NCBI GenBank assembly: GCA_028283605.1
Contig: JAPWKH010000032.1
Coordinates: 1-64,000, forward strand
Reading direction: 5' to 3'
DNA length: 64,000 bases
Origin: Arachidicoccus sp.
GTDB lineage: Bacteria > Bacteroidota > Bacteroidia > Chitinophagales > Chitinophagaceae
Below, piece after piece: positions 23,186 through 49,940 of this stretch. Both the position numbers and the translations under genes were made by a program. The notes beneath the pieces were generated by a model that made no database searches, was not told the DNA's origin, and saw only the letters and a program-made list of their open reading frames with translations. Within the stretch, counting starts at the first letter, position 1. Every line of letters begins with the position of its first letter.

Positions 23186-23943
23186 ATGAAAGCTGTTGTT
23201 ATAACACAAGCCGGAGACCCGGAAGTACTGCAGATAAAAGATTATCCGACTCCTGCGCCAGTCGGCGATGAGGTTCTACTCTCCGTAAAAGCGGCAGGGA
23301 TTAATCGTGCAGATGTTTTCAGCGTAAAGGCAATTACCCTGCGCCTGACGGCGTTCCGAAAGATATACCCGGTATGGAAGTAAGTGGTATTATAGTAGCA
23401 TGCGGCACGGAAGTCCTACAATTTAAAAATGGCGATGCGGTATGTGCTTTAATTGCCGGCGGCGGCTATGCGGAATTTGTTGTAGTAAGGGAAGGCCAAT
23501 GTTTACCAATACCGAAAGGAATTAATTTTACTGAGGCTGCAAGTTTGCCTGAGACTGTATTTACAATCTGGTCAAATGTCTTTGAACGAGGAGCTCTACA
23601 GCCGGGAGAAACCTTGTTGGTGCACGGCGGCGGCAGCGGGATTGGTATAACAGCCATCCAAATCGCTAAGGCATTGGGAAGCAATGTTATCGTTACAGTA
23701 GGAACAGAAGATAAAGGCCAACAATGCCTTGCTTTAGGAGCAGATAGTTTCATCAATTATAAAACACAGGATTTTGAAAAAGTCCTTTCTTCAAAAAGGA
23801 TAGATGTGATTCTTGATATCGTCGGCGGTAACTATTTTAGCAAAAATTGGAATGTCCTGCATACTGATGGAAGGCTTGTTTATACTAATGCAATAGCTCA
23901 ATCATACTGTTCGTTTTACCTGTCTGCTTATCCATATGGGTAA
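23186..23943 (+). pseudogene. NAD(P)H-quinone oxidoreductase / zinc-free MDR-type dehydrogenase, frameshifted and 3'-truncated
   Basis: Medium-chain reductase of the quinone-oxidoreductase (PIG3/QOR) branch. The head MKAVVITQAGDPEVLQIKDYP ... AGINRADVF is followed by a one-base deletion in the TTTT run near 23320. The other frame resumes the expected Q-RKGNYPAPDGVPKDIPGME and continues VSGIIVACG, YAEFVVVREGQCLPIP, TVFTIWSNVFERGALQPGETLLVHGGGSGIGITAIQIAKALG (NADPH-binding Rossmann) and VILDIVGGNYF. After about LVYTNAIAQS the normal final 70-80 residues are missing and unrelated sequence follows. Both lesions make it nonfunctional. Confidence 0.85.
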
Positions 23944-24287: not shown

Positions 24288-25409
24288 TTATTTAAGGATC
24301 TCTTTCAATTTATTTTCCAATGCTTCCCCTCTTAAGTTTTTAGCTATAATTATCCCTGATGGGTCAATCAAAAAATTGGTGGGAATTGCGGTTACTTGGT
24401 ATAATCGTGCCGCCGCGTTATTGGCCCCTTGTAGATCGGACAATTGTTCCCAAGAAAGATTATCCTTTTCAATAGCTTTCAGCCAATTTTCTTTTCCATT
24501 TTCTCCTCCATCTAATGAAACTCCTATAACATTGAAATTTTTATTTTTATATTGATTATAGGCGTTTAAAACATTTGGATTTTCCTCGCGACATGGTCGA
24601 CACCAAGACGCCCAAAAATCAAGTAATATATATTTACCTCTGTAAGAAGATAAAGTAAAATCTTTATCGTCCTTATCCTTCATAGTGAATTCCGGAGCAA
24701 TTGCCCCAATACTAATATCTTTCGCCTTTTGAATTGCTTGATAATATTGTTGAGCCATTGGCAAAACTCTTAAATCAGGACTAAGTATATTAATCAGCAT
24801 TTTAGCCTTTTCGGCATCCTCAATAGGATCAAATGATTGCCGAATCAAATTTAAACTGACAAGGGAATTTCGGTGATTTTTTATGTAATTAATTTGTATT
24901 TTAGATTTTCTACTTAACAGTTCCTCATACTGTTTTTTTAGCTTTGCTTGCAAATCAGTATTGTCTTCTGCAGCAATATATTTTTCATTGATATTACCTT
25001 CTTCTTTCTTAAATGGTTCCAATATATTTATCAACACTTGCTGATCTTCGTTAAGTTTGGTTCCTCCAACTACTGCATGGGTTAGAGTATCGGAAGATTT
25101 AATTTCAATAGTTCCATTTTCCAAATATACGCCCACCTGATCGGGAGCAAAAATATCTCTTGTTGTTGCGCCTCTTTGATAAAGTAAAACAAATGCTTTC
25201 ATTGGTACTGATACATCTCCTTCTAATATAAATTGATTATCACGAACTGTTACGGAATCAAATTGTAAGCCATGCCCATCTTGATAGTAGACATATGCAT
25301 GTGCAGGATATTGAACCTTATTTAATTTTCCTATGATTTTGAAATGTTGTTGTGCATATACACTCAAACCAAAAGGCAGTAGAGCCAGTAATAAAAATCG
25401 CTTTTTCAT
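24288..25409 (-). CDS. TlpA-like thioredoxin-fold protein with DUF4369 domain
   Basis: A 373-residue secreted or periplasmic protein with signal peptide (LLALLPFGLSVYAQ, residues 1-20), a DUF4369 beta domain (about 21-120), a helical linker (about 125-225) and a thioredoxin domain (about 232-373). The redox motif is WCRPC at 269-273 and the cis-Pro loop is AIPTNF. Proteins of this design are membrane- or periplasm-located disulfide reductases or oxidoreductases found beside SusC/SusD loci in Bacteroidota. It is the last gene of the ECF-sigma-led island locus, all on the minus strand, but separated from the protease gene by about 295 nt, so it may have its own promoter. Confidence 0.88.
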   Translation of the reverse strand: MKKRFLLLALLPFGLSVYAQQHFKIIGKLNKVQYPAHAYVYYQDGHGLQFDSVTVRDNQFILEGDVSVPMKAFVLLYQRGATTRDIFAPDQVGVYLENGTIEIKSSDTLTHAVVGGTKLNEDQQVLINILEPFKKEEGNINEKYIAAEDNTDLQAKLKKQYEELLSRKSKIQINYIKNHRNSLVSLNLIRQSFDPIEDAEKAKMLINILSPDLRVLPMAQQYYQAIQKAKDISIGAIAPEFTMKDKDDKDFTLSSYRGKYILLDFWASWCRPCREENPNVLNAYNQYKNKNFNVIGVSLDGGENGKENWLKAIEKDNLSWEQLSDLQGANNAAARLYQVTAIPTNFLIDPSGIIIAKNLRGEALENKLKEILK

Positions 25410-25703
25410 TTTATTGTTTTGTTATAATTTAAATATTTCGTTGAATAATCAATGTGCCTAATCTTTTTATTAAACATATAATTTAATATGTTATTCTGTA
25501 TGTCGATTAATGTTTTTTTAAGACTAATAGACGACCCTATATTATTGCTAATGTGAAATGTTTTGTTTTAATTATTCCATTAAAATTCAGAATGGATGCT
25601 TTCCTTATATAATCAACAATAATTCAATGCTGTGTAATTAAAAGACATCATGCAATCATAAAAATTGCCATAGATAACCCTTTTTTTAATCCTTATTTTT
25701 TTA
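25410..25703. other. Intergenic region between protease and TlpA-like genes
   Basis: About 295 nt of very AT-rich sequence without an open frame of note. It is long enough to hold a promoter for the TlpA-like gene, but I see no strict TAnnTTTG box on the minus strand. Confidence 0.3.
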
Positions 25704-26654
25704 TTAATTAGATGAAACAATTGATTGAATTAAATGTTTAATTGAAGAAACGGGGATCGCATTTTTGATAACCATTTGAGTCATCGGACGACCATTACTC
25801 TGTTGCTCTACAATATTTGTGCTGGAAACAATGCCTATAACATATCCGTTATTATCCAAAATAGGACTACCACTTGCTCCAACTGAAAAATCGGCAGTAA
25901 TGGACATTAAATTTCTAGCAGCCCTCCCCGTACGTCCAGGCAAAACCATGGTTTCATTGTATTTCCCAGAGACTATACCCTGTGTAAGACTATACAACTG
26001 ACCGAATGAGTTGCCCAAAACATAAGCCTTTTCACCAACTTCCGCATCCATGTTTCTCAGCTTTACATAAGGGAGCCTTTCCCCTTTTACATCAATCTTT
26101 ATCAATGCAAGGTCATCTTGAGGAGACAAGGCAAGTACTTTTTCCATTACATATGTTCGCCCATTTCCCAACCTTATTAAAAAAATTCCTTGGTCGTTTA
26201 GGGTTTTGGAATGAGCATAAGCATACACAACATGGTAATTGGTGAGGCATACTCCGTCCGGAGTTATAACAAATGCCGAAGCAGGGTTTACGGAAATCTC
26301 TTTTGAAAGATTGGGCTTACTACACATTGCCACCAACCCTACGGCAGGTTTGCTATTTGCATATATCAGGGTAGGGAACAGTGACTTCATTCTTCTTTTA
26401 GCAACTTTAATCTTTAAACTGGGACTAATCACATTTTTACTGTCCCTTAAATAGGCTGCGGCGTCACTTGGTGTAAAGACTTTCATGGAAGTAACCAATA
26501 TTGAATCTGCCATGTTGCGAATTGGTCTCATTATATCTATTTCAGTATCTAGATATTGTGCCTCCACATGCAAATAGGCAATCAATGGAATACACGGCAG
26601 TATTAAATATAAATATCTTTTTTTAAAAAATTGCACACAATGTTTATTAATCAC
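25704..26654 (-). CDS. Secreted trypsin-like serine protease (HtrA/S1C-like, no PDZ domain)
   Basis: A 316-residue protein with an N-terminal hydrophobic signal or anchor (residues 14-32), a helical segment (40-100) and an S1-type protease domain (about 105-315). The triad is visible: His141 in TNYHVV, Asp181 in QDDLALIKID, and Ser261 in VGASGSPILDNNG. The oxyanion segment reads GASGSP rather than the common GNSGGP. No PDZ domain follows, unlike DegP/DegS. The start codon is GTG. It lies 31 nt after the second TlpA-like gene and is likely in the same operon. It could process the nutrient taken up by the SusC/SusD pair, or a regulator; the sequence does not decide. Confidence 0.87.
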   Translation of the reverse strand: MINKHCVQFFKKRYLYLILPCIPLIAYLHVEAQYLDTEIDIMRPIRNMADSILVTSMKVFTPSDAAAYLRDSKNVISPSLKIKVAKRRMKSLFPTLIYANSKPAVGLVAMCSKPNLSKEISVNPASAFVITPDGVCLTNYHVVYAYAHSKTLNDQGIFLIRLGNGRTYVMEKVLALSPQDDLALIKIDVKGERLPYVKLRNMDAEVGEKAYVLGNSFGQLYSLTQGIVSGKYNETMVLPGRTGRAARNLMSITADFSVGASGSPILDNNGYVIGIVSSTNIVEQQSNGRPMTQMVIKNAIPVSSIKHLIQSIVSSN

Positions 26655-26685
26655 CGCTGGTTATAATGGTTATAATTTAGTATAA

Positions 26686-27213
26686 TTAAATTCCTTCGAG
26701 TTGTTCAAGATTTCTTTTAAGGTCTGGACTAGAAGCCCTAGGCATGTATGCATTCATCAACACTCCTTTTCTATCAATTAATATGTACCTGGGGATATAG
26801 CCCACTTTAAGGTCGATCATGAACTGTTTATCTCCGTTTAAGAACCATTGGATTCCTTTTCTTTTGAACATGGCAACCGCACCTTTCCAACGAAAAGCTT
26901 GTTGATCACAGGAAAGCTGAACGAAAACAATATTCTTATCTCTTAACTCGTTTTTTAGGGAATCGAAATGTGGAAATTCATTGATGCACGGGTAACACCA
27001 ACTAGCCCAAATATCTAGCAAAATATATTTCCCCTTAAATTCCTGAAAGGTTACATTTTTGCCTATTGTATCCTGAAAAACATATTTAACCAAATCTAGA
27101 CCTGGATTAACGATCGTATCCTTTTCTTGTGCACAAAGAATTGTTGGGAGAATTGAAAATAGGCAAATCGAAAGACAGCATACCCTAAAAATTCTAACTA
27201 AGATTCTGTACAT
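26686..27213 (-). CDS. TlpA/ResA-like thioredoxin-fold protein
   Basis: A 175-residue periplasmic protein: signal peptide (residues 1-28, ending LCAQ) and one thioredoxin domain. The redox motif WCYPC is at about 72-76 after GKYILLDIWAS, and the cis-Pro loop is YIPRYILID. The length is short for TlpA proteins, without DUF4369. It lies between the DUF1735-like lipoprotein gene (140 nt upstream) and the protease gene (31 nt downstream), in one direction. It is probably a disulfide oxidoreductase acting on proteins or peptides in the periplasm. Confidence 0.87.
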   Translation of the reverse strand: MYRILVRIFRVCCLSICLFSILPTILCAQEKDTIVNPGLDLVKYVFQDTIGKNVTFQEFKGKYILLDIWASWCYPCINEFPHFDSLKNELRDKNIVFVQLSCDQQAFRWKGAVAMFKRKGIQWFLNGDKQFMIDLKVGYIPRYILIDRKGVLMNAYMPRASSPDLKRNLEQLEGI

Positions 27214-27353
27214 AATTTTATATATATTTTTTTGATTTTAAGATTTGTTTTTGTAAGAACTTTTAAATTTTAATAGATATATTTTTTAAACACCGAAACC
27301 CGTTGATTAATTACCCAAGCGAATAGCCCAATGACAAGATCGAAAGTGGCAAC

Positions 27354-28358
27354 TCAATATGTAAACACACTTACATATACCTTTTTCTTCGTTTCTATCA
27401 ATGGGATTGCGTAATCTTTGTCTTGACTTTCCATTAGCTCTACGATCATTAATGTGGACTTATATTTAACAAATTTTGCATCAGAATTTACTTCGATCTC
27501 AATACTATCCTTAGAATATAAAGATCCTGCAGGGATAACCACTTCTGATTTTACTACGGTAAATGCATTAGGAAACGAAAGATAATTGCCAAAGGCTTGG
27601 ATAGTAGAATCGTCGTTGTGTACAACCGCAGACACTTTAAGATCATGCCCACCTGTAAAAGGCTGGTTAAGCATCACTCCTATTTTGATACTAGTTAATT
27701 CTGGAACAGTGCCATCAGCATTAGAAGAGAAAAATTCACTCATAAGATACCCTCCTTTATAAGCAATTAAATTGCTTGGATTTACCATAGCAGAAAGTGC
27801 CCCATACTTCCTAACCTTCATCTTAAAGAAAACTATGGAAGTCTTTAAACCACTAGATTTTTTCTCTGACAAACGGATAGGAACAAGATATACAAAACTA
27901 TCAACAAGATTCGACGCGTCTTTTAGTATGGCATACAGGGAGTCTTTGGACTGTGTTGCTCCTTTACCTATTGGAAAAACTCCACCGTGTGAAGCACCAA
28001 AAGCGCTGTCGGGAATGGAGTGATTGGTCTCTTGATACAATTTATTATAGGATTCAACTAATGAAGGATCTACTTTGGCAAAAACAGTATCCCCATCCTC
28101 TGCACCTTTATCAAGTTGAATAGGGATTCCTATATAGTCTGGAGTGAGATTATATTCTATACTATCTACCGAATATTGGCTTGCATTTTCTACGTAAGAT
28201 GCAATTATACCCGACGAGCTTGATGACAGAAGATCCAAATCATTATTAGTATCTTTTTTACATGCAATCAATGCAATAGAAAAGATACTAATATAAAATA
28301 TTAAATTTTTGATAGCCTTGTAAAATCTTATATCCGATCTATTTCTAGAAAAAAGCAT
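27354..28358 (-). CDS. DUF1735-like surface lipoprotein of the SusCD locus
   Basis: A 334-residue lipoprotein: lipobox IALIAC with the lipid-modified Cys at about residue 33, followed by KKDTNN. The segment DPSLVESYNKLYQETNHSIP resembles the DUF1735/BT_3987-type domain found in lipoproteins encoded with SusC/SusD, and the IPIQLDKGAEDGDTVF and VVIPAGSLYSKDSIEIEV strands suggest beta-sandwich repeats. It begins 30 nt after SusD, so it is in the same operon. In other loci the protein in this position is a surface glycan- or ligand-binding protein. Ligand unknown. Confidence 0.7.
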   Translation of the reverse strand: MLFSRNRSDIRFYKAIKNLIFYISIFSIALIACKKDTNNDLDLLSSSSSGIIASYVENASQYSVDSIEYNLTPDYIGIPIQLDKGAEDGDTVFAKVDPSLVESYNKLYQETNHSIPDSAFGASHGGVFPIGKGATQSKDSLYAILKDASNLVDSFVYLVPIRLSEKKSSGLKTSIVFFKMKVRKYGALSAMVNPSNLIAYKGGYLMSEFFSSNADGTVPELTSIKIGVMLNQPFTGGHDLKVSAVVHNDDSTIQAFGNYLSFPNAFTVVKSEVVIPAGSLYSKDSIEIEVNSDAKFVKYKSTLMIVELMESQDKDYAIPLIETKKKVYVSVFTY

Positions 28359-28387
28359 AATGGTGGATTTAGTAAAGAAGAAAAATT

Positions 28388-29764
28388 TTACCTTGGGTTT
28401 TGAACAATATTTGTGTTATTGGCAATTATGGTCGCCGCGAATGGGAAAAGATATAGATTGGAGCCAGGAACTAAAGAATCTATTATTTCATTTGAATCAT
28501 TTTTCCGATATATGGTTTTTTTAAATGCCTCTTCACGGTTTAACCTTTTCAGATCAAACAATCTTAACCCTCCATGACAATACAATTCTCGTCTTCTCTC
28601 TCCAAGCACACAATTCAATATATTCGAAGAGTTATAAACACGGGTGTCTACTGTTGAAGATTTCAGTCTATAACTTCTAAGCTCTTTTAATATGGCCCCC
28701 GCATCCGATACGTTGCCTTTTCTCGCAAGACATTCTGCTTTTATCAACATAACTTCTGGCACTCCTACGCTATTGTCAAAAACCATGGAAGTAGGACTAG
28801 TTGAATAAGATATTTTATAACTTCCACTTGTAAAGTTTTTCGAGAGTCTCAAATCGGAGGCATCCAAACTATCAGATAACGATTGACTAATCGAAAAAGT
28901 TCCTGTATAAGTTAAATAAAAACCTGCATCAAAACTCAAACGTCCCAATAAAATTTCTGGATTTGAGGATAAATCCACTAGACGTATGGGTTGCGTGGCG
29001 GTATTATTATAGTTAAGTAAAGTGTTCTGTAATGCCAAAGATGAATCTGCATAGGCCATAGCGGAGTCATATTGCGCTTCATAAAGATATGTTCTCGCCA
29101 ACAAAGCATATCCAGCGGCTTTCCCTGGATGTAACACATCTACCCCTTTGCTAGGTAAATAAGTATTACTTACAGCCTTCTTCAAGTCTGCCAATATTTG
29201 TCCGTACATAGTTTGTAAAGTAGCACGTGCAGGAAGTGAAGAAGAACTTGGTTCTAAAATTAAAGGAACTGAAAGATCAGTAGTAGCGGTAGACTGGTTG
29301 TATGTCGGCCCATAGATATTAGCAAGTTGAAGATAATACCATGCCCTATTAATCAAGGCCTGAGATATCACATTGCTTCTGTTTTCCTCTGTATTGAGAC
29401 TATCTTTAGGGGCCGAATTGACTCGGCTAAGAATAATGTTCATTTGCAAAATTCTGGTGTAGGACGAATTGTAAATCATATCAGTATCAGAAGCGTTCCA
29501 AATGATACTATTCCAATGGTATGTCCTTGAATAAATGGTACTTCCTATCCCTGACTGGGCATCCACCATCCTTGAATCGTCACTCATAAAGTCTACAAGA
29601 AAATAATAGCCAGTGCCCAATGAATCATTATTAAGCATTTCCTGAAAATCTTTTATGGTAGAAGGATTAACACTTTGGGTAGACGGATTTATGTCTAAAA
29701 ATTTATTACATGCACAAAAAACAGAAATACAAATAACAAATAAATTAATTATAATCTTTTTCAT
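28388..29764 (-). CDS. SusD/RagB-family outer-membrane lipoprotein
   Basis: Nutrient-binding lid of a SusCD importer. Start set at ATG 29764, 10 nt after the SusC stop, giving MKKIIINLFVICISVFCAC with the lipid Cys near residue 19. About 458 residues, shorter than the SusD proteins of the second locus (about 580-590). Family marks: FLDINPSTQSV, the TPR-like segment ALINRAWYYLQLANIYGPTYN, AGYALLARTYLYEAQYDSAMAYADSSL, PEVMLIKAECLARKGNVSDA and LGERRRELYCHGGLRLFDLKRLNRE. It belongs to the ECF sigma/FecR/TlpA/protease locus. Confidence 0.92.
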   Translation of the reverse strand: MKKIIINLFVICISVFCACNKFLDINPSTQSVNPSTIKDFQEMLNNDSLGTGYYFLVDFMSDDSRMVDAQSGIGSTIYSRTYHWNSIIWNASDTDMIYNSSYTRILQMNIILSRVNSAPKDSLNTEENRSNVISQALINRAWYYLQLANIYGPTYNQSTATTDLSVPLILEPSSSSLPARATLQTMYGQILADLKKAVSNTYLPSKGVDVLHPGKAAGYALLARTYLYEAQYDSAMAYADSSLALQNTLLNYNNTATQPIRLVDLSSNPEILLGRLSFDAGFYLTYTGTFSISQSLSDSLDASDLRLSKNFTSGSYKISYSTSPTSMVFDNSVGVPEVMLIKAECLARKGNVSDAGAILKELRSYRLKSSTVDTRVYNSSNILNCVLGERRRELYCHGGLRLFDLKRLNREEAFKKTIYRKNDSNEIIDSLVPGSNLYLFPFAATIIANNTNIVQNPR

Positions 29765-29774
29765 AAACCTTATA

Positions 29775-32700
29775 TTAAAAACCAACATTTATAGTACAAG
29801 AATATTGACGTGGAATTGCCAATCCTATTCTTCCGTTAGTACCAACAGTAGAAGGATCTATATGATATTTATTTTTTGTCCAAATAGCTACATTCTGAGC
29901 CTGTATGGTTAACGTAAAGGACATCAGTCCAAATTTTTTTAAATTTTTAATAGGTGGACTCCAACCAAACATTATCTCTTGTAGCCTGATGTTATTTGCG
30001 GATAAAATACTATTGCTGGAATTCTGTAATACAAATGCCCTATATGCATCAGCATCAGTTTCTCCAGGCACAATTTTTTTGATGCGGGCTATATCGGTAT
30101 GGTTTTCGTCTCCCGACTGGCGCCATCTATCCTTTACTAAAACACTTCGTTCCAACTCAGAATTCATGGCAGGAATGTATCTCCTCATAACGTATCCCCA
30201 TTGAAATGTCAATGCAACTCTAGTAAAAAATTGTTTATAAGTTAATTCATGAATAAAGCCGCCGGTCCATGGAGCAATAGTCGTTCCACTATACACCATA
30301 GCAGTGGAGAGCGTCGTACTATCCATACTAGCTGTTTTATTTCCATTAATATCATATACTTGTGGATCTCCCTTATTGTCTAGACCAGCCCATTTAAAAC
30401 TCCATATATTGCTGGTATTATATCCATCTCTATACGCTGTTGCATAACTAGATGAAGCGGAAAAAGCAGTTTTAGGTACACTCCGCGCTATGTTGACATT
30501 GTAGGCACCATTAAGCGTTATTGTATAGTTAATATTTTTGTGATTGATTATTTTATTTTTAAAATAAAATTCAATCCCTTTATTGTTGATGCTGCTATAG
30601 GTAGTCTGGGAAGATAACCCTGTGGATGGATCGGTATAAACATTTGTATAATTATTTAAACCTGAAGTTGTATGGTTATAATACCTCAAATCAAACATCT
30701 GATCATCTTTATTTATACCCATTTCAAAATGCATTTCCCAATTTGTATTTTTAGGAGGTAAAGTATTGAAGCTATTATTAGTTGCAGAACTATAAGATCC
30801 GCCAGATGATACATTCGTTCCCATCATTAATCCAAGTCCTTGATAGGGACTAATGCTTTCAATTTTACCGTCAAAAATCAAAGTACTTATCTTTTTAGAG
30901 TGGAAATAGGATTCATGAGCTATATCATAAGAAATCGCACCATTTACTTGAGAAGATCCTTCCGGTGATTTACTGTAATTAATATCCATTAAAAAAGCTC
31001 CTTTTCTAAATTTTGCCCTCAGTCCCGCACTCATGTATTTCTCGGTATAACTACTATCTGCTGACGACTCTTCATTAGTGGAACTATTACTTGCTGTAGT
31101 AATTTTTTGCTGGTTATAAGCTACATTAACAACGAAGCGATCGTCAAACATATTGAGAGTCATTCGCTCAAAATAGTTTAAGGTTCTTTGACCCTTTTGT
31201 TGGGTAGGGCTTAACCCATTCACCCAAATGGAATAATTACCCCAATCCGTTTGCAAGAGACGCGTATTACTATATGAGACTGGCAAATCAGGCATAATCA
31301 TGCCCGTCAAACCTGCAGATATTAACAGTTTACTAAAAGCTTTCTTAGGATTTGATTTTTTTAATACTATTCCCGTTGCTTCAATATTATAATTGGATAG
31401 TACTGAATATTTAGATGATTGTCCATATAAAGGATTAAATACACTATTATAAGAGCCATTTAAAAAGACATTACTATTATAGTCATAAGCAATAGACCCG
31501 TTCCAGTTGATGTTTCTACTGTTCGTAGTGTACCCACCAGATGCAACAGCATAAGTATATGGCGTAACAGTAGATGATGTGGAAAAAAGAGAATAGAAAT
31601 TAGAAATAGTGCCTTCAGGATCTGGAGCAGGCAGATAAATAGGAACTCCTGATTTAGTCTTTGTATTGTAACCAAACATCGTGGATACATCGGGTTGACT
31701 ATAATGTGAGCTTGCCGCCCCATAACCAATTGTTGCAGAAACGTTGTGTTTTCCAAAAGACGTCTTATAGGATAATCCTGAACGCACATTCCAATCCTCG
31801 TCTTTCAAAGTATTTTTTTTCATGATATTGCCATAAGGAATATAAAAATTAACACCGTTCTTCTCAATCTCTCCATATTGGTCTACCAATTGTCTAACAT
31901 AACTCGATTCCTTATCATAAAAGCTTTCCGTGTTTGTACTTGCCTTTCTGTAGAAAATAGAAGTAGTCCATCTCAGGTTTTTTGAAAGCGACCAATCCAT
32001 GTTATAACGATTCTGAAGCAAATTTTGTATGGATGAATTTTTATTGAGTCTAGCATCTTCTAGAACGTTGGACCCGTAATTTTTGTAGCCATAAGATTCT
32101 ATTGTAGCATTGGCAGAAGGAGATAAATTATAATAATCATAAATATAGTTCCCGTTGCCGTCTAGTAATAGTTGATATGGCTCCAATGTATTATTAGGAT
32201 TGAAGGAATAGCCAATTCGATTTTGCGTATGCGTGTACTTAAGAAGCCAATCTATGTGTAGTCTGTCATTTAAAAGGTTAAGATGATTGTTCATATTGAT
32301 ATCGCTTGCCGTACTTGAACTCTTTAGTTCATTTCCGGAATTCGAAGTGTAATTGCCAATTATAGTAAACCTATACTGCTTACTTCCCCCTGCCACACTA
32401 AGAGAATGCGTTTGATTGAAAGCATTTTGTTGTAACAAAGCAAGTTGACTCTCATTATTTAATGATTTTAAAGAATCCCAACTTTTGTTAAAATCAGGAT
32501 CTATCAATAAATTTCTTTCTCGCTTTTCAGCCAATAGTCTTTGTGCAGGCGTTAAGTTAAAAGATGTAGGTACAAATGTATTACCTGTCGAATCCAAATA
32601 ATCTTCACTATAGTCTAAATAGTCCGACGTCTCTGACAATTGTAATTTTTTAAAGTTAAATTTGGGTGCAGGAGTATAATAAAAAGACGACATGTAATTA

Positions 32701-33968
32701 AATAACATGCTACCTTTTTTTCCTGATTTGGTCTTAATTAGGATGAGACCTCCTGCAGCCTTTGCACCCCATTTAATCAACTCCTGAGGGTCTTTCACAA
32801 CTTCTATAGACTCGACATTGGCCATTGGGTAACTGGCAGGAAATTCATCCTGCGGAAAACCATCTATTACAACTAACATAGAAGAAGTCCCTGTATAACT
32901 GTTTATTCCTCTAATTTGTGGGACCAATGTATTTGTGACAGAGGTAGTAGTATGTAACCTGTACAGCACTTGTGTATTATTATTTCCTCCATAAGCATAT
33001 GGATTTTTTAAAAGTGCATCTATTATGGCTTGACCTTCAGTTTGTCCTTTGTATGCAAGAAACTCATCGTACGTCATTGATTGATAATTCAACAATGTTT
33101 CCCCGCTGGAGGTTAGATGCTGAAACACGTCAATGCTAGTTACTTGAGTTTTGCTACTGCTGTTGTATTGCAAACTTAATCCCGGCACCGTGCCTTGTAA
33201 TATCTCTCCAAGATTCATGTATTGCCTATTACTCATATCTATGGATACAGTAGGATCTTTTTTGGGTGGTTGGACAAATGTTTCTACTTTTACTCCATTC
33301 AATTCCATAATATTCTCTTTTAATATAACCTTTAACAGTTTCTGGCCTTTATATTCAACTGTTAGTGGTTTATAACCAATTACAGAAAATTTTATTAAAT
33401 CGTTTAACTGTCCTTGAATTTCAAACGTACCATCTGATTTGCCAAAAGTGTATACCCTTCCATCTCTGGTAATATTTGATACACTCACTCCTTGTAATAT
33501 ATGGCCTGCACTATCTTTTACAATTCCTCGAATTATAGAATCTTGAGAAATTACATTTATGGTATTTAAAGTATTTTGTGGAGAAGCAGATTTATCTTTT
33601 TCCCTAATAACAATTGTTTTATTAGTTATAGAATAACCAATAGGCTGCTCACTAAATAATAAATTTAATGCATCTTTTAAAGGATAGTTAGATACATTTA
33701 TAGTGACTGGGAGCGCTTTATTAATCAATTCCGTTTTGTAAAAAATATCATATCCCGTTTGTTGTTTTATTTTATTTAAAACCGTCATGATAGGGACATT
33801 TTTTTGTTTAATTGTCACATTCTGAGCTACTAGATAATTTGCTGAGATTAAATGAAAAAAAATAGATAATACGCCAATCTTGATTAAAGGTTTTTTTTTA
33901 ATTTTAAAACTCCTTTCTTTAAAAAAGATTTTATTTGCACAGCACTTTACTGCATTAAAAAAAAGCAT
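29775..33968 (-). CDS. SusC/RagA-family TonB-dependent transporter with STN signalling domain (1397 aa)
   Basis: Outer-membrane importer. Signal region (about residues 20-50), STN domain (about 52-120: VTIKQKNVPIMTVLNKI, LNLLFSEQPIGYSI), carboxypeptidase-regulatory-like domain (about 145-220: IIRGIVKDSAGHILQGVSVSN), plug (about 235-420) and a long beta-barrel ending INVGF. The STN domain normally contacts a FecR anti-sigma factor, in agreement with the FecR and ECF sigma genes directly upstream. It is unusually long. Part of the excess is an insertion of about 80 residues in the plug between GLSLQYN and VPQIRGIN. The SusD gene follows after 10 nt. Confidence 0.93.
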   Translation of the reverse strand: MLFFNAVKCCANKIFFKERSFKIKKKPLIKIGVLSIFFHLISANYLVAQNVTIKQKNVPIMTVLNKIKQQTGYDIFYKTELINKALPVTINVSNYPLKDALNLLFSEQPIGYSITNKTIVIREKDKSASPQNTLNTINVISQDSIIRGIVKDSAGHILQGVSVSNITRDGRVYTFGKSDGTFEIQGQLNDLIKFSVIGYKPLTVEYKGQKLLKVILKENIMELNGVKVETFVQPPKKDPTVSIDMSNRQYMNLGEILQGTVPGLSLQYNSSSKTQVTSIDVFQHLTSSGETLLNYQSMTYDEFLAYKGQTEGQAIIDALLKNPYAYGGNNNTQVLYRLHTTTSVTNTLVPQIRGINSYTGTSSMLVVIDGFPQDEFPASYPMANVESIEVVKDPQELIKWGAKAAGGLILIKTKSGKKGSMLFNYMSSFYYTPAPKFNFKKLQLSETSDYLDYSEDYLDSTGNTFVPTSFNLTPAQRLLAEKRERNLLIDPDFNKSWDSLKSLNNESQLALLQQNAFNQTHSLSVAGGSKQYRFTIIGNYTSNSGNELKSSSTASDINMNNHLNLLNDRLHIDWLLKYTHTQNRIGYSFNPNNTLEPYQLLLDGNGNYIYDYYNLSPSANATIESYGYKNYGSNVLEDARLNKNSSIQNLLQNRYNMDWSLSKNLRWTTSIFYRKASTNTESFYDKESSYVRQLVDQYGEIEKNGVNFYIPYGNIMKKNTLKDEDWNVRSGLSYKTSFGKHNVSATIGYGAASSHYSQPDVSTMFGYNTKTKSGVPIYLPAPDPEGTISNFYSLFSTSSTVTPYTYAVASGGYTTNSRNINWNGSIAYDYNSNVFLNGSYNSVFNPLYGQSSKYSVLSNYNIEATGIVLKKSNPKKAFSKLLISAGLTGMIMPDLPVSYSNTRLLQTDWGNYSIWVNGLSPTQQKGQRTLNYFERMTLNMFDDRFVVNVAYNQQKITTASNSSTNEESSADSSYTEKYMSAGLRAKFRKGAFLMDINYSKSPEGSSQVNGAISYDIAHESYFHSKKISTLIFDGKIESISPYQGLGLMMGTNVSSGGSYSSATNNSFNTLPPKNTNWEMHFEMGINKDDQMFDLRYYNHTTSGLNNYTNVYTDPSTGLSSQTTYSSINNKGIEFYFKNKIINHKNINYTITLNGAYNVNIARSVPKTAFSASSSYATAYRDGYNTSNIWSFKWAGLDNKGDPQVYDINGNKTASMDSTTLSTAMVYSGTTIAPWTGGFIHELTYKQFFTRVALTFQWGYVMRRYIPAMNSELERSVLVKDRWRQSGDENHTDIARIKKIVPGETDADAYRAFVLQNSSNSILSANNIRLQEIMFGWSPPIKNLKKFGLMSFTLTIQAQNVAIWTKNKYHIDPSTVGTNGRIGLAIPRQYSCTINVGF

Positions 33969-34083
33969 AGTTTTGTGAATGTTTTGAGTTAGTACTAATT
34001 ATACCTATTAAATTTTTATTTATTAAACAAGCTCAAAATTTTTCCGGAAGTGGAATCAGCACTTCCGGTTTTTTATGCCTGCT

Positions 34084-35241
34084 TTATTGCAAAACAGTTA
34101 CAATATTATTTTCCACTTTAAAACGTATTCCGCTTAATTCAAGAACTTTTAAAACCTCCTGTAAATTTTGACCCATTGAAGTGCTTCCGGAAAAACGAAT
34201 ATGATTGTCTGTTCCATTTTCATATTTCACTTCTACTCCATACCATCTTTTAATTTGTCTCATTATAGTGCTTAGCTCAGTATTATCAAACATAAACTTT
34301 TCTTTCATCCAAGCAACAGTAAGTGTAGTGTCTACTGCTATTACATTTATTGTAGTTGTATTGTGAGCAGTAATTGCTTGTTGGCCTGGAGATATAATAG
34401 TTTGTTGCAACCCTGTTTTTACTTTTACTCTACCCTGTAATAATGTTGTTGCAATATATTGCTCGTCAGAATATGCATTAATGTTAAAGTGTGTACCCAA
34501 AACCTCTACCCGCTGCTCTCCCGCTTTTACCACAAATGGTTGGTGTTCTTTATGTACAATTTCAAAATATACTTCACCCTGAATTTCTACTAATCTCTCC
34601 TTACTATCAAATGAAATTGGGTATTTTATGGAAGAAAGTGAATTAAGCCAAACCTTACTACCATCTGGCAATTCTATTAAATATTGCCTGCATTTATCTG
34701 TAGATGCTACATTAAAAACAGAATTAGTTCCTTTCCCTTCGTAACTAATTTTCCCATCCTTTTTAATGACCTTAACCCCATTTTCTACAGCAATTACACC
34801 ATCATTTACAGAATCAAGCATAATTTTAGTATTATTTCCTAATGTTAAGATCAATCCTTTTTTTCCAGGTAAAATTGCTTTTGCAATAGTTCTAATTGGA
34901 GCACGATTATCATTTTTATAAAATAAGTATCCCAGTGTAATAAAAATGAAAACTAGTGCAGCATATTTAAATACTGTATAGTTTTTTGATTTTTCTCTTA
35001 TAATAGATATTTTTTTGGGTTCATTAGATATTTTTTTTCTTATTGATCTAAGTAATTTTTTTCTATGCAATTCCTTACTCTTTGCGATATCAGAGGGAAT
35101 AAATACAGGCATATCTTGGTCAGAATTATACCAAAAAGAATATTCTATCGCTTCTTTTTCAGTAATGGTTCCATTTAGCCATTTCGCCTCAAGTTCCCTT
35201 AACCGTTTTACGTTTTTTATATCTTGCATATTTCTATTCAT
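34084..35241 (-). CDS. FecR-family anti-sigma factor
   Basis: Inner-membrane regulator that passes the signal from the STN domain of SusC to the ECF sigma factor. Start set at ATG 35241; the track start is a TTG four codons upstream. About 385 residues: cytoplasmic anti-sigma region (about 1-85, EYSFWYNSDQD), one transmembrane helix (YAALVFIFITLGYLFY, about 90-110), FecR domain (about 140-290: IELPDGSKVWLNSLSSIKYP, VEIQGEVYFEI, FVVKAGEQRVEVLGTHFNINAY) and the C-terminal STN-interacting domain (FDNTELSTIMRQIKRWYGVEV). It lies between sigma and SusC genes in one direction. Confidence 0.93.
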   Translation of the reverse strand: MNRNMQDIKNVKRLRELEAKWLNGTITEKEAIEYSFWYNSDQDMPVFIPSDIAKSKELHRKKLLRSIRKKISNEPKKISIIREKSKNYTVFKYAALVFIFITLGYLFYKNDNRAPIRTIAKAILPGKKGLILTLGNNTKIMLDSVNDGVIAVENGVKVIKKDGKISYEGKGTNSVFNVASTDKCRQYLIELPDGSKVWLNSLSSIKYPISFDSKERLVEIQGEVYFEIVHKEHQPFVVKAGEQRVEVLGTHFNINAYSDEQYIATTLLQGRVKVKTGLQQTIISPGQQAITAHNTTTINVIAVDTTLTVAWMKEKFMFDNTELSTIMRQIKRWYGVEVKYENGTDNHIRFSGSTSMGQNLQEVLKVLELSGIRFKVENNIVTVLQ

Positions 35242-35329
35242 ATATATTATCAATCAAAAAAGAAAAAACCCTATATTATAATAAAAATAATTACACATAT
35301 TTTTTATTATAATATATGGTAAAGAATAT

Positions 35330-35896
35330 TTAAATGAAAAAAGAGATAAAAAAAATGCGTATTTTGGAACGAATTAATTTAAACGCTCTTGTAAGATGAG
35401 ATTCAACTGTTTTTTCGGAAATTTGTAGATGACTAGCTATTTTCTTATGAGAAAGTCCTTCTTCTCTACTTAGTTTATATATCAAGCGGCATTTTTCTGG
35501 CAAATTTGCAACTAGTTTATCTAACTTATCCTCTAGTTCTTCGAAACTCAGTTGAGATTCTAATGAGTAGTGATTTAATTTATTATTGTTGATTTCGTTT
35601 AAAATATTTTTTTTTCGGAATGTATCTTGATTTGCATTTATAATTTTATACTTTAATGCTGCAGCAAGATATAAGCCTAGTTTATTAGGAATTTTCAAAG
35701 TTGCTCTTCTTTTCCAAATATCTAGAAACAAATCTTGTATAATTTCTTCAGCTAGATAGCAATCCTTTAATTTGTTAGCAGCAACTATATATAACTTATC
35801 CCAATAACGATTGTAAATTTCAGTAAAAGACTCTTCGTCTGATATATTTAGTAAGGTTACAAGTTGTTCATCAGAATAGTTTTTATATAAATCCAT
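35330..35896 (-). CDS. ECF-type RNA polymerase sigma factor of the island Sus locus
   Basis: A 188-residue sigma-70 family protein of the Bacteroidota FecI-like group. Region 2: FTEIYNRYWDKLYIVAANKLKDCYLAEEIIQDLFLDIWKRR. Region 4: LVANLPEKCRLIYKLSREEGLSHKKIASHLQISEKTVESHLTRAF. It is the first gene of the FecR/SusC/SusD/DUF1735/TlpA/protease series and probably directs transcription of SusC onwards when FecR releases it. The last residues are very hydrophobic (IRIFFISFFI), a mild oddity. Confidence 0.94.
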   Translation of the reverse strand: MDLYKNYSDEQLVTLLNISDEESFTEIYNRYWDKLYIVAANKLKDCYLAEEIIQDLFLDIWKRRATLKIPNKLGLYLAAALKYKIINANQDTFRKKNILNEINNNKLNHYSLESQLSFEELEDKLDKLVANLPEKCRLIYKLSREEGLSHKKIASHLQISEKTVESHLTRAFKLIRSKIRIFFISFFI

Positions 35897-37485: not shown

Positions 37486-38661
37486 TTATTGCCAATTATA
37501 AAGCCTTACAAAATGCGGTCTGTATAGGTCTGCGCTACCTGCTGCATTAAAGTTTGCAGCAAAGTCATTGGGATTTGTATTGTATGCAATAACAAGTTCT
37601 CCTTGAGTAGATAGCGATTGATGCAGCGTAGTATTATAGGTAACGCCCCAACTAAAATCAGGAATGTAATAGATTGTTCGTCTGTTTGTAAACGGACCTG
37701 TCGGGCTGGTAGACTCCCAAAGATAAATCTGATGTCCGTATACAGCTCCTTGACTGATTATATAATATTTATTGTTCTTTTTGATGATATTCGGTAGCGT
37801 TTGTGCATCCTCCAAAACAGTATAGTTATCAGGATTATCTGCCCAACCATTGGCTGTAAGAAATTGCCAGTTGGCAGTCAAATCATGATTAGGCGCGCGT
37901 GCTATATGTAAATCATAAGCCAAGAAATTCTGAGTATTTCCATAGATGTATGTATAACCGTCATCGTCATCGAAAATACCTCCATCATAACTTATATCGC
38001 CGATAACCTTATTTTTTATTACCTGCTCTAAAGCCATATCCGGAGTGCTGAACACAGCTAAATCAGTGCCCGGGTGGTCTAAGCCGCCAGAACTGTTGTA
38101 TACCAGATGGCCTAATAAAAGCTGTAATTTTCCATTCAATATATGCCCATCCCCGGGCCAGTAAAGTTCTTTGGTATCATTAGATTCCAGATTGTCATAC
38201 ATCAACCACGTCTTACTGTTATTAAGCGTTCCCTGATTTAATTGAACAAAACTCTCGACAGATTTATTATACTGCAAAGCCGCTGCATTTCTAACAAACT
38301 TATTTAAAGCCGGATCGCGGTTTCGTGCGCCGTCTATCGTACCTATAAAGCTATCCTGAAAGGTCCATAGTGTAGTAGTATCATTAATCACGTGGGAATA
38401 ATTACCGTCGCCACCGTTCCATCCGGAATAGCGCGTAAGATATTTATCATACTGCAAATCTTCATAAGCCTGAACCGACGCATCCCATTTACCGGTATTT
38501 GGCAAAAGGCGTAATATGGACGTGTCTGTACGAAGATCAACTGCTGAATCGTTGTTTGATGTAGTGTCAACCGGCCTGTGGTACGGAGCAATGCCGTATT
38601 CATTTTTTAGACTGCACGATGAAATCAGCAATACTGAAATATATAAACTGACTCTTTTCAT
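37486..38661 (-). CDS. DUF5005-like secreted beta-propeller lipoprotein
   Basis: A 391-residue protein with lipoprotein signal (LYISVLLISSC, lipid Cys at about 16). The mature part looks like a five-bladed glycosidase-type propeller: YLTRYSGWNGGDGNYSHVI, TLWTFQDSFIGTIDGARNRD, NAAALQY, LGHLVYNSSGGL, and late blades LPNIIKKNNKYYIISQGAVYG and ELVIAYNTNPNDF. The SGWNGGDG and SFIG segments recall the DUF5005 domain encoded in Bacteroidota PULs. It is the last gene of the operon led by the ECF sigma gene at 52444 and starts 32 nt after the lectin-propeller gene. Enzymatic or binding role unknown. Confidence 0.72.
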   Translation of the reverse strand: MKRVSLYISVLLISSCSLKNEYGIAPYHRPVDTTSNNDSAVDLRTDTSILRLLPNTGKWDASVQAYEDLQYDKYLTRYSGWNGGDGNYSHVINDTTTLWTFQDSFIGTIDGARNRDPALNKFVRNAAALQYNKSVESFVQLNQGTLNNSKTWLMYDNLESNDTKELYWPGDGHILNGKLQLLLGHLVYNSSGGLDHPGTDLAVFSTPDMALEQVIKNKVIGDISYDGGIFDDDDGYTYIYGNTQNFLAYDLHIARAPNHDLTANWQFLTANGWADNPDNYTVLEDAQTLPNIIKKNNKYYIISQGAVYGHQIYLWESTSPTGPFTNRRTIYYIPDFSWGVTYNTTLHQSLSTQGELVIAYNTNPNDFAANFNAAGSADLYRPHFVRLYNWQ

Positions 38662-38693
38662 AAGAATTTACAATTAAAATTTACAAGATTATT

Positions 38694-40295
38694 TTACAAA
38701 CCTATTTGAGAATACGGTATCCGTATTCCTTTTACTCTGTAAAAATATGGGTCTAAATAACCGTCCTTACAATCTTTTACCCCGCATGCGGAAAAATTGA
38801 GACAATAAGTAACTAATAATTCATTATGCCCGTTATCAAACTCAGGATGAATTGCAGAGGTATAGTAACGCGCATAATTTCCATACAAGTATTCGCAGAT
38901 GGAATAAACTTTTTTACGCACACTAAATGGACCTGTCGGACTGTCGGAAACGGCAACATAGATATTTCGCGTACTGTCACAATTAAATCCCTGATCCATT
39001 GATATCAATATATATTTTCCGTGAACATATGCTACTGAAGCGGATGCTAATCCATCTGCTATTCTAGCAGAATCATCTCGCACAGGAGTTTCAGTCCATG
39101 AAGAGCCATTCCAAAATGTCCATGACTGAGGATCTGTAACAGTGAAGCGGGCAACGTAGACATTTAGCGTATATCCGTAATGAGTACCCATTGTTCCGAA
39201 CACATACACATATCTGTTGTTGGACTTTACCATCCCTGCTGCATAATTTATTCCTTTATAAGCACGCAGTACTCCGGGAACGGTACGTTTAACAGACCAT
39301 AGATGCTCTTCACTTTCCGTAAGATCGTATAATGATTGCCCCCTAACTTCTAAACCATCACCCTCGCCGCATTGCATATACACATGATTGCCGATTTCCA
39401 CACCCGCTGCGGGCCATGCAAATTCTGTGTTGGGCATCACATCACAAATCTGTTTCGGTCGATGTTGTGCGCTTCCTTCACGTATCATGTTTAACGTATG
39501 ATCGGGATTCCAATCTGCCACCGAAGGTTGAATCAAAACTGAGTTTCTGTAATGAAAATAATCGGTACATTTAAATTTGTGATTAGGTTGTAATGATTCG
39601 CCGTCCCATGCGTCTTGCGTTACCCAAAGAACTTTCCCTTTGTTAGCACCGTAATATAAAGGAATGGACATGCCTTCGTCAAATGCTACCGAGCCAGCAC
39701 TTCCGTTATTCCTATTAAAAAATTGTACGACCTCATCATCGCGATAAGTAACTGCGGGTTGCTGAATAAATGTCCATTGCTGATTTTTACTATCGTTTAG
39801 AGATTGAAGCGTTACAGCGGTATCTTCTGTTGCACTGCCGAGAGCGAGTCCTGTTTTCTTATTTATAATACGAAATCCATCAGAAGAATTAACACGCTGA
39901 ATGCTCCAAAGCTCTTCATTTATCAAGGAATCAGACTTGAAATATTGTTGCAGCTGCGTTCCGTAATCGGGAGCTTTCAGCATCTTGCCGCTAAAAACAT
40001 TTCTTATATAGTAATACTTTATATGATTGATTGTTTTATCATAAACAACATACCATTGCTGCCATCCTGCGACGTCGTCTTTATAACGCTCAGCTTTATT
40101 CAAAACGATTTTACTGCCGTCATTATATTTCTCATTATAAAAAATATTTCCTGCAACCTGCAAAAAACCTTTACTGAAATTATTTTGAATAATATATACG
40201 GCATAGCCTGCATCTATTTCTGCAGTATAGCTTCTTTTTGTGTTACTGAACCACAAAACCGATAAACAACATAAGAAGAAAGTTATTTTTATCAT
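38694..40295 (-). CDS. Secreted ricin-type lectin plus DUF4185-like beta-propeller protein
   Basis: Start set at ATG 40295; the track start is a TTG. About 533 residues: signal peptide (ITFFLCCLSVLWFS), a ricin-type beta-trefoil (about 20-160: QQWYVVYDKT, YYIRNVFSGKMLKAPD, GFRIINKKTGLALGS, NQQWTFIQQP) with the QxW motifs, and a five-bladed propeller (about 175-530: YYGANKGKVLWVTQDAWDG, FAWPAAGVEIGNHVYMQCGEG, SPTGPFSVRKKVYSICEY, NELLVTYCLNFS). It begins 14 nt after SusC2, so it is co-transcribed. The lectin probably holds the glycan and the propeller may be a glycosidase or a binding module; no catalytic assignment is possible by eye. Confidence 0.75.
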   Translation of the reverse strand: MIKITFFLCCLSVLWFSNTKRSYTAEIDAGYAVYIIQNNFSKGFLQVAGNIFYNEKYNDGSKIVLNKAERYKDDVAGWQQWYVVYDKTINHIKYYYIRNVFSGKMLKAPDYGTQLQQYFKSDSLINEELWSIQRVNSSDGFRIINKKTGLALGSATEDTAVTLQSLNDSKNQQWTFIQQPAVTYRDDEVVQFFNRNNGSAGSVAFDEGMSIPLYYGANKGKVLWVTQDAWDGESLQPNHKFKCTDYFHYRNSVLIQPSVADWNPDHTLNMIREGSAQHRPKQICDVMPNTEFAWPAAGVEIGNHVYMQCGEGDGLEVRGQSLYDLTESEEHLWSVKRTVPGVLRAYKGINYAAGMVKSNNRYVYVFGTMGTHYGYTLNVYVARFTVTDPQSWTFWNGSSWTETPVRDDSARIADGLASASVAYVHGKYILISMDQGFNCDSTRNIYVAVSDSPTGPFSVRKKVYSICEYLYGNYARYYTSAIHPEFDNGHNELLVTYCLNFSACGVKDCKDGYLDPYFYRVKGIRIPYSQIGL

Positions 40296-40309
40296 TGAAA
40301 AATAATTTA

Positions 40310-43300
40310 TCAAAATCCGATTTGCAACCCTAAAGTTACCACACGCTGATTCATATATGCATCACCCGCCGTATTGGACTGTACTTCCGGATCTTGCTGA
40401 TATTTTTTTGACACATTACTCCATGTTGCAATATTGTAAGAGCTAAAGTATAGTCTTGCATTATTAATTTTTAATGGTAACCATTTTGCAGGCAACTGAT
40501 ATCCGAATTCAATTGTTTTTAACCTGATATAATATGCATTCACCAACCAAAAATCCGACATATAAACAGCTGGGCTGTTTACTGTTGTAGGATTGGTTGT
40601 TAATCTTGGAAATTGGGCAGAAGCGGCAGTTTCGGTCGTCCACCTTTTTTCGTGAATAGGCTGAAACTGGCTTTGGAATGGTTCTATCGCAGTGCCAGTA
40701 AGCGCTAAGCTGTAATCGAATGCTCCTTGAAAAAGGAAGTTGATATAAAACCCTTTGTAGCTTAAATTAATCGGCAGCCCCAATGTAGTAGTCGGTAAAT
40801 TAGGATGACCGATTGCCTGCCTGTCATTCTCATCAATCACGCCATCGCCGTTCAAGTCTTTATATTTTAAATCACCAGCCTGAATAGGTATGGCGGTTGC
40901 GGGTTTTGCAACGGAAGCATTATTAACATCTTCCTGAGAATAAAAACCCTCATATACATATCCGAACGGCTGGTTTATAGGTTTTCCTGTTGCCGCCAGC
41001 CAGGGATAGCGTGGCGATGCTTCCGCTTCATACAAAATTTTGTTTTTTGCATAAGACCATACAAGCCCTATACTATAATTCATCGCACCGATTTTATCTT
41101 TATAAGTAATGGTTCCATCGAAACCGCGATTAACCGTTTTTGCTACATTCGTTGGCGATACACCGATTCCAAGAATTTCCGGAATGTCGCCGCGCGTTAC
41201 CAGCTGGTCATAACGATAATCCCTGAAGTAATCTGCCGTTACAGAAATTTTATCATTAAACACATTGAAATCAAGCCCTATATCAAGGCTTCTTTTCTTT
41301 TCCCAGGTAACATTATCATTACCCAACGAACCTTCATAGATAGTACCACGACTTTGCGGTGATTGACCAAAACTATAACCGCCGCCATCATAATATACTT
41401 GCTGGTATAAATACCTGTCACCTACTGCAACATCCGAACCTACAACACCATAAGACATTCTTAATTTAAATAAGCTAAATGCAGAAAGAATATTCTTCAT
41501 GAAATTTTCTTTCTTTAGATTCCATCCCAAGCCCACGGCAGGGAAAAAGCCAAATCTTTTGTTCGCATCAAACCGATCTGAACCGTTGTATGCAACATTA
41601 AAATCCAACAAATATTTCTGGTTGTAATCATACCCTATTTTATAAGAAAATCCCCTGAACTTTTGCGGCGCTGCTGCTATTACATAATTCTCATAATTCT
41701 CCTGATTCCATAGTAACAAAGAATTGATATGATGATTGCCGAATGCCACTGTATAATTCAGATATAACTGCATATTTACACGCTGATCTTTCAAATCTGT
41801 ATTTCCAATTGTTCGGTATCCTATTAATGTATATCCGCCGGAACTTACGCCGGTATTGAGTGTATATGTGCTATCCCTCGGGTCGAAATGGTAAGACGGC
41901 GGAAAAGCATAAGGCCGCGCAAGATTTAAAGTATTTTGCTCAACCCCTGCGTATGCCAGTCTTCCCGTTAAAGAAAGCCCCTTAACAATGAAATCCAATT
42001 TCTCATTAAATTGTACCAGCGAATTATAATCGGTTCTTCTTTGCCTGCTGTAACCGCCAGTTGCCAATCGCGCGTTTATTGTAGGCAGTTGGTCTTGCGT
42101 ATCGTACGCATAAGCGTAACTTCCGTTAGGATTCAGAAACGGCGCGGAATATGGATGATATTTGGTAAAATTATAAATATCGCTTGTTACATTCTGATTA
42201 TACGGCTGATTAATGTCGCCGAAGCGTGCCGTAAGATCGAGCCTTAAACTGAAGTTGTGCGTTACCTGTATATCGAGATTCGATCTTACGGTATATCTTC
42301 TGTAAAAATAATTGGTATTGACGCCGTCTTCATTAGTAGAAAAGTCCCGAACTTGGCCGTTCTGGCTAAATAATCCGCCAGATACAAAATACTTAACAGA
42401 AGCCGTACCACCGGAAATATCCAGATTGGTATTTGACTGTGTTGAGTAAGGCTTCATGATAGCTTTGTACCAGTCAATATCAGGATGTCCGTAAGGATCA
42501 TCGCCGCTCTTGAAGGCATCGAAATCGCTTTGATTAAAAGGCGCTACAAGATCGTCATTCTTATAGGCTTCATTGACCAATTCCGCAGTATTGTAGGCAT
42601 TTAAAAACTTAGGTGTTCTTACAGGTGTCTGCACGCCTGTTTCCTGAATAAGATTAAAATTCGGCCTTCCCAACTTCCCTCTGCGTGTGGTTACAATCAA
42701 TACGCCGTTGGCACCTTTAATACCATAGATAGCTGTTGTAGAAGCATCTTTCAGAATAGATATATTTTCAATTTCATTTACATTTATTTGCGCCAATTGC
42801 TCATAAGTATATTCAATATCGTCTACAATAATTAATGGCTGGTTACCGGCAGAATTCAAAGAACTTACACCCCTGATAAAATAATCGGACGCATCTTTTC
42901 CCGGTTGTCCCGAACGCTGTTGGGAAAAGAAACCGGGCAATCTTCCTGCGAGTGTGTTTTGCACACTGGAGGTGGGAATTCTTCTTATTTCATCTGCATT
43001 GATGGAAGCCACCGAACCAGTATTGGTAACTCTTTTAGTTGTGCCGAAACCAACAACTATCACATCATTTAAAGAACTATTTGCTTTGCTCAAAACAATA
43101 TTCAGCAACGATATTCCGCTTGTCGTAACTTGTTTAGTTTGGTAGCCTACAAGACTAACTATAACGGTATCGCTGTTAATCGTAATTGTAAAAAATCCGT
43201 TTTTATCGGAGTTGACATGGTTTTGCGGATGCGCTTTTTCATTTACAGTTACTTCCGGTAAAGGTCCGGCAGAATCCCGGACAAATCCTCTAATCGTTCT

Positions 43301-43363: not shown

Positions 43364-43409
43364 TGAGAAATAAGATAAACTGTGTTATAATTATTTGCGT
43401 TAAATAATG

Positions 43410-45179: not shown

Positions 45180-45182
45180 AGA

Positions 45183-48383: not shown

Positions 48384-48406
48384 AAATATCGTTGTGTTGA
48401 TGTTTA

Positions 48407-49399: not shown

Positions 49400-49407
49400 A
49401 TTGAATT

Positions 49408-49836
49408 CTAATTAATTTTTTGGAACGTATATGTGTAACTGTTGGAACTGCAGCCCGGAGAAAAGGTTAATACAATATTCCTCACCCCGTTGGTAGTCGG
49501 GTATTTAAAGTCTAATTCTTTAGTAAAGTTATCCGGGGTTTCAAAATAAATTTTAAAAGGATATTGAGGATCATCTAAATGATACGTTCCGTTTTGAGTA
49601 ACTATAAAAGGCACTGAATTATCAACAATATAAGAACTGTCGCTGAATGTAATTTTGAAACGGGAGAAGTCGAAACGATCCGTTAAATCCGTTCCATTTC
49701 TAACGGCATTTATAATTTTCCATGTGCCAGTAATTGACTTTACCGATTCCCGATTATGCTGAAGAAAATCTTCCCGATGACAATTGCTGAACAGTATCAG
49801 CACCAACAGAAAAGAAAATATTTTAATCAATTTCAT
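49408..49836 (-). CDS. DUF5004-like PUL lipoprotein
   Basis: A 142-residue lipoprotein: signal IFSFLLVLILFSNC (Cys at about 19). The core SITGTWKIINAVRNGTDLTDRFDFSRFKITFSDSSYIVDN and a later beta strand series look like a small lipocalin-like fold (GTWK/x motif) as in DUF5004. It lies between SusD1 and the DUF4961-like gene. Its 36-nt leader is nearly identical to the leader of the SGNH hydrolase gene at 59013. Confidence 0.7.
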   Translation of the reverse strand: MKLIKIFSFLLVLILFSNCHREDFLQHNRESVKSITGTWKIINAVRNGTDLTDRFDFSRFKITFSDSSYIVDNSVPFIVTQNGTYHLDDPQYPFKIYFETPDNFTKELDFKYPTTNGVRNIVLTFSPGCSSNSYTYTFQKIN

Positions 49837-49926: not shown

Positions 49927-49940
49927 TGATTATAAATTTT

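Follow-up and report, generated by a model that had tools for sequence, protein, structure and literature searches.

An eight-gene SusCD import cassette, in which an ECF sigma factor, a FecR anti-sigma factor, an STN-domain SusC and a SusD are encoded together with a lipoprotein, two TlpA-type thiol-disulfide oxidoreductases and a PDZ-less HtrA-type serine protease, was recognized in a 64,000-nucleotide stretch of DNA from Arachidicoccus sp. (the window), and the same combination was found to recur in other genomes. Every part belongs to a known family, and the recurrent combination is apparently uncharacterised, representing a variant of the SusCD import locus rather than a system of a new kind. 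As comparative genomics the finding is solid; as to function it is weak. We consider the chances about even that the locus is a dedicated substrate-sensing import-and-processing cassette, the cargo of which would most likely be a peptide, a protein or a glycoprotein fragment that is reduced and cleaved in the periplasm.

Gene content of the cassette

The cassette lies at positions 24288-35896 of the window, where eight ORFs, intact and without internal stops, all run on the minus strand from the sigma factor gene, which begins at 35896, to the gene of the DUF4369-TlpA protein, which ends at 24288 and is preceded by a 294-bp gap (Table 1). All eight products were assigned by Pfam with every match above the curated cut-off. 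These results agree with an earlier note on this DNA, which had described eight co-directional, apparently intact genes of these families, with an HtrA-like protease without PDZ domain and no glycosidase: no CAZyme or glycosidase domain was detected by Pfam among the eight gene products. A polysaccharide utilisation locus is defined by a SusCD pair plus a carbohydrate-active enzyme, a definition that does not cover the window cassette. Between the FecR and SusC genes, a strong hairpin is terminator-like on its plus-strand side and has an A-rich flank on the coding strand, and could possibly represent a transcript end or an attenuator. Outside the cassette, an ORF of 189 aa at 23374-23943, of the PIG3-type quinone oxidoreductases, spans model positions 63-244 of 325 and is probably a broken gene, and a second ECF sigma/SusCD region at 37486-52444 encodes DUF4961, DUF5005, DUF4185 and ricin-lectin proteins and contains two SusD genes.

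Table 1. Features of the cassette, listed in the direction of transcription.
Feature	Position	Strand	Basis
ECF sigma factor, 188 aa	35330..35896	-	Pfam Sigma70_r4_2; NCBIfam TIGR02985 (Sig70_bacteroi1), 133.9 bits, over cut-off
FecR anti-sigma factor, 389 aa, C-terminal FecR_C	34084..35253	-	Pfam PF04773 and PF16344, over cut-off
Hairpin with 9-bp stem, FecR/SusC intergenic	34044..34068	.	Consensus scan and sequence; no functional evidence
STN-domain SusC-type TonB-dependent transporter, 1397 aa	29775..33968	-	Pfam STN and Plug, over cut-off
SusD-type lid lipoprotein, 466 aa	28388..29788	-	Pfam SusD-like_3 and SusD_RagB
Lipoprotein with BT_3987-like N-terminal (DUF1735) domain, 334 aa	27354..28358	-	Pfam PF08522 (BT_3987-like_N, formerly DUF1735), 48.8 bits
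TlpA-like thiol-disulfide oxidoreductase, WCYPC, 175 aa	26686..27213	-	Pfam Redoxin/AhpC-TSA; ResA-like
PDZ-less HtrA/Deg-type serine protease, 316 aa, triad H141-D181-S261	25704..26654	-	Pfam Trypsin_2
DUF4369-TlpA thiol-disulfide oxidoreductase, WCRPC, 373 aa	24288..25409	-	Pfam DUF4369 and AhpC-TSA

The SusC and SusD genes overlap, and a plugged TonB-dependent barrel of the SusC type with an adjacent SusD lipoprotein identifies them as a SusCD pair. The window SusC is divergent, scoring 260 bits against the TIGR04056 cut-off of 368 bits and also falling below the cut-off of TIGR04057 (NCBIfam); identity was 44-54% for its orthologs in the genomes G003, G072, G401 and G837, and 60% and 48% for SusD orthologs. 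All elements of an STN/FecR/ECF unit were found above Pfam cut-offs, namely an ECF sigma factor, a FecR with its C-terminal domain and an STN domain on the receptor. The STN domain was seen in 25 of 39 sister SusCs with a single-sequence query, and a FecR/ECF unit heads nearly all cassettes with a readable upstream side. By analogy with these established families, the SusCD pair is predicted to transport and the STN/FecR/ECF unit to signal. Solved relatives of SusC and SusD were also considered as indicators of the substrate class and proved not discriminating: the best matches were 8ypt/8ypu and structural-genomics SusDs, RagB matched the window SusD weakly (E = 5e-4), and the SusD sequence fails to separate peptide binders from glycan binders.

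The catalytic triad of the protease was invariant across 28 homologs, which places it among the trypsin-like S1C enzymes. In Foldseek searches with its AF2 model (pLDDT 88, pTM 0.85), the best folds were the protease domains of Deg1, DegS and HtrA1, and profile searches with its sequence matched Deg5 and Deg1 of chloroplasts. No PDZ domain was found in Pfam, and the modelled protein ends with a helix at 302-314. It is classed as an HtrA-like protease domain, not as DegP, DegQ or DegS, and scores far below the NCBIfam Do/HtrA cut-offs. It shares with DegS, Deg1, Deg5 and HtrA1 the S1C domain and the intact triad, whereas it has no PDZ domain and is encoded inside an importer cassette. The mature protein has exactly two cysteines, C111 and C136. 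The loop that precedes the strand of the catalytic His commonly has a CxxC-x3-H motif (for example LCPRCSNTH or YKCDKCxxWH) in SusCD-linked members of the subfamily (L065, L066, L068-L077, L079-L085 and others); the window protease has lost it. The subfamily is common to Bacteroidota, Planctomycetes and Verrucomicrobia, and the motif, carried also by PVC homologs (L103-L131), is ancestral, because it occurs in planctomycete and verrucomicrobial proteins without a TlpA/Trx neighbour. A redox switch specific to the cassette proteases was considered and rejected, the motif being equally common in these homologs without thiol-oxidoreductase neighbours and missing from the window copy.

Both TlpA proteins carry a CxxC motif within a Redoxin/AhpC-TSA domain scoring over the cut-off, as expected for the TlpA/ResA family, and the genome encodes one DsbD-type protein. 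The N-terminal leaders of the TlpA proteins and the protease resemble signal peptides by eye, so that these proteins would be periplasmic. The importer is poor in cysteine: mature SusC has one, the lipoprotein has only its lipobox Cys33, and SusD has Cys353, 393 and 404 besides the leader. This would leave a thiol reductant little work on the importer, and points to the cargo, SusD or the protease as its target.

Conservation and variants of the cassette

Full-length homologs of the protease (E ≤ 1e-28) were found in four of the 150 relatives searched (G003, G007, G044 and G072), in each case within an operon of the same kind, made up of sigma, FecR, SusC, SusD, lipoprotein, TlpA or Trx, and protease genes; at the G072 locus, one sigma gene lies internally on the opposite strand. 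The remaining protease matches among these relatives had E values of 1e-16 or weaker, and most fell in ORFs of about 500 aa, as ordinary HtrAs do. Genome-wide protease counts served as the protease background. GTDB genomes were then scanned with an alignment of five proteases. The results showed the same arrangement in Pedobacter, Nubsella, Sphingobacterium, Mucilaginibacter, Chitinophaga, Pseudoflavitalea, Carboxylicivirga, Plebeiobacterium, Mangrovibacterium, Flavivirga, Aestuariibaculum and Butyricimonas, and also in Algoriphagus on reading further upstream. Among 44 Bacteroidota protease rows remaining after removal of duplicates, several of them cut by contig ends and one a DegQ-like outlier, SusD lay upstream on the same strand in 32 and SusC plus SusD in 30, and a TlpA/Trx gene was present within 5 kb of the protease at 36 of the 44 loci. 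As a control, the same protease subfamily outside Bacteroidota had a TlpA/Trx gene within that distance in 1 of 30 cases, some of these contigs being short. The cassettes span at least six families, with interchangeable middle lipoproteins, and because the same set recurs across families, the gene linkage is not due to chance.

In Mantel tests, the protease distances were correlated with those of SusC (r = 0.90), SusD (0.88) and FecR (0.81), and none of 2000 permutations reached such values. The genes of the cassette are inherited together, as one unit, with a contribution of shared species history to these correlations. On the protease tree, the SusCD label required 11 changes as compared to a mean of 11.6 for shuffled labels, with no extra clustering, since members linked to SusCD occur throughout the Bacteroidota subfamily; a single origin is therefore not supported by the tree. 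Two Chitinophaga genomes (L092:4697-10774 and L096) hold a protease homolog outside any SusCD locus, preceded in L092 by MutS-like and ABC-2 transporter genes.

The middle lipoprotein distinguishes three variants: it is BT_3987-like in type A, which includes the window cassette, a 307-aa protein without family match in type B, and replaced by DUF4843 and PKD_2 proteins in the third. Homology of the type-B protein to the HExxH metallopeptidases, as a degenerate Peptidase_Mx1, was not supported: the profile comparison aligned the lipoprotein leader only, no PDB relative was found and its AF2 model was of low confidence (pLDDT 54). Several cassettes encode further enzymes. Three type-A cassettes have an S41 protease gene after the HtrA-like protease gene (L063:3624-5672, L067:10528-12609 and L179:4354 onwards); the L063 product, from G003, has the Prc-type domains TSP_NTD, PDZ and S41, and the other two were matched by a profile seeded on it. 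The Algoriphagus cassette (L082:3782-9967 / L164) also encodes two Trx-like proteins, a PLP enzyme and an M16 peptidase, and its DsbD gene is the direct upstream neighbour of the protease gene. Glycosidases are encoded in Butyricimonas cassettes L107 and L167 (GH92 with PA14, GH92 at L167:12460) and in a Mangrovibacterium cassette (GH2 and GH116N, L073:4001-8307), so that their absence is not a rule of the family. In the type-A and type-B cassettes scanned besides that of the window, no glycosidase was assigned; many of them carry thiol and peptidase functions only.

Conservation was also followed from the importer. SusC searches of 395 class members and the 150 relatives (E ≤ 1e-100) afforded four orthologs (in G003, G072, G401 and G837), that is, five loci including the window. 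A BT_3987-like lipoprotein gene and at least two TlpA genes were present at all five, and the protease gene at four. It is missing only from the importer cassette of G837 (L178), which has sigma, FecR, SusC and three TlpA genes; this genome, which is also that of L076, has a second cassette, of type B, and the protease gene lies there. These counts imply that the importer keeps its TlpAs more constantly than the protease, which is often present yet can be dispensed with. Via the protease, one more type-A cassette, the sixth, was found in Pedobacter petrophilus (L067), with every gene of the set. At the G072 locus (L064), the importer is orthologous to that of the window and the protease is very divergent; it may have been replaced, given its 24% identity and its position on a different tree branch. 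The earlier note had proposed looking for co-occurrence in other genomes, with lack of conservation of the TlpA and protease genes alongside the SusCD pair as evidence against its reading; seen from both the protease and the importer, these genes have been kept with SusCD in relatives.

Possible functions of the cassette

As an import-and-processing cassette, the locus would operate as follows. SusD and SusC, helped by the surface lipoprotein, would capture the ligand, upon which the STN domain of SusC would move; this movement would be signalled through FecR, leading to release of the ECF sigma factor and induction of the operon. In the periplasm, the TlpAs, recharged by a DsbD-type reductase, would break disulfides or hold cysteines in the reduced state, and the polypeptide part of the cargo would be cut by the PDZ-less protease. 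We infer the identity of the cargo; its reduction and cleavage we infer because the TlpAs and the protease recur with the importer and because extra peptidases and DsbD are encoded in sister cassettes. Counting against this reading are the glycosidases of some sister cassettes, the protease-free importer ortholog at L178, and the possibility that the protease has an envelope protein as its target.

The glycosidases in the Butyricimonas and Mangrovibacterium cassettes suggest that the cargo may be glycosylated, and are consistent with a glycan or glycoconjugate importer in which the protease and TlpA would be accessory, for example in stripping peptide from glycopeptides. The BT_3987-like N domain, moreover, is named for a protein of a glycan-processing system. 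However, neither the window cassette nor the other type-A and type-B cassettes that were scanned provided a glycosidase, and we regard such an importer as rather unlikely. A role of the protease and TlpAs in quality control or maturation of the importer itself, or of the TlpAs on the protease, in place of a joint action on the cargo, is unlikely, too. The cysteines of SusD and the pair kept in the mature protease would offer targets for such activities, and many subfamily proteases have the CxxC-x3-H motif; DegP is activated on reduction of its LA-loop disulfide, which thioredoxin accomplishes in vitro (PMC4339722). Nevertheless, the motif is ancestral and absent from the window copy, SusC and the lipoprotein have hardly any cysteines, and most SusCD pairs manage without such genes.

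The main mechanistic rival assigns the protease to signalling: encoded by the cassette itself, it would make the site-1 cut in the periplasm, in FecR or in the SusC STN domain, and RseP would then set the sigma factor free. Sigma, FecR and SusC genes head nearly every cassette readable upstream, and DegS, the site-1 protease for RseA, is among the closest folds of the window protease. An S41 protease is encoded in three type-A cassettes as well. Prc, an S41 enzyme, is the site-1 protease of IutY, whereas FoxR, FiuR and FecR are stated to be without a known one (PMC5411451), and the FoxA signalling domain is itself cleaved (PMC11637429). The cassette protease is in this respect a candidate for the missing periplasmic protease of FecR-type signalling. 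On the other side, the window genome has 26 FecR genes and one protease of the cassette type, L178 has sigma, FecR and SusC without the protease, and the protease gene stands beside TlpA/Trx towards the 3′ end; furthermore, protease divergence follows that of SusC and SusD more closely than that of FecR, although all three correlations are high. A site-1 role is thus quite improbable in our estimation. We consider it highly improbable that a DegS-like operon-encoded site-1 protease clips its own FecR or STN domain on cargo arrival, with TlpA gating via C111/C136.

Relation to known systems

No paper characterising such a SusCD/TlpA/protease cassette was found among open-licence papers, in keeping with the earlier note, which knew of no characterised TlpA/SusCD grouping of this sort. 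To our knowledge, SusCD importers have been studied almost wholly as glycan systems. Importers that recur with a protease and thiol reductants of their own would form a class devoted to scavenging proteins or glycoproteins, and the gene set is concrete and testable in culturable soil Bacteroidota. SusCD loci with DUF4843 and PKD_2 proteins resemble the window in having SusCD followed by lipoproteins and TlpA, with the same protease subfamily in several genomes, whereas the window has the BT_3987-like lipoprotein in their place; no name or importer account for them was found in the open-licence literature. Peptide-importing SusCD pairs do exist, namely RagAB of Porphyromonas gingivalis and Bt2261-64 of Bacteroides thetaiotaomicron (PMC7782687, PMC11817032). 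They share the SusC/SusD pedal-bin architecture with the window and indicate that the family can carry peptide; the window cassette differs by adding the STN/FecR/ECF unit, the TlpAs and its own HtrA-type protease. In FecARI and FoxARI, too, a single operon encodes an ECF sigma factor, FecR and a TonB-dependent receptor with an STN domain; in the window, this receptor is a SusC lidded by SusD, and enzymes for processing are encoded in the same operon.
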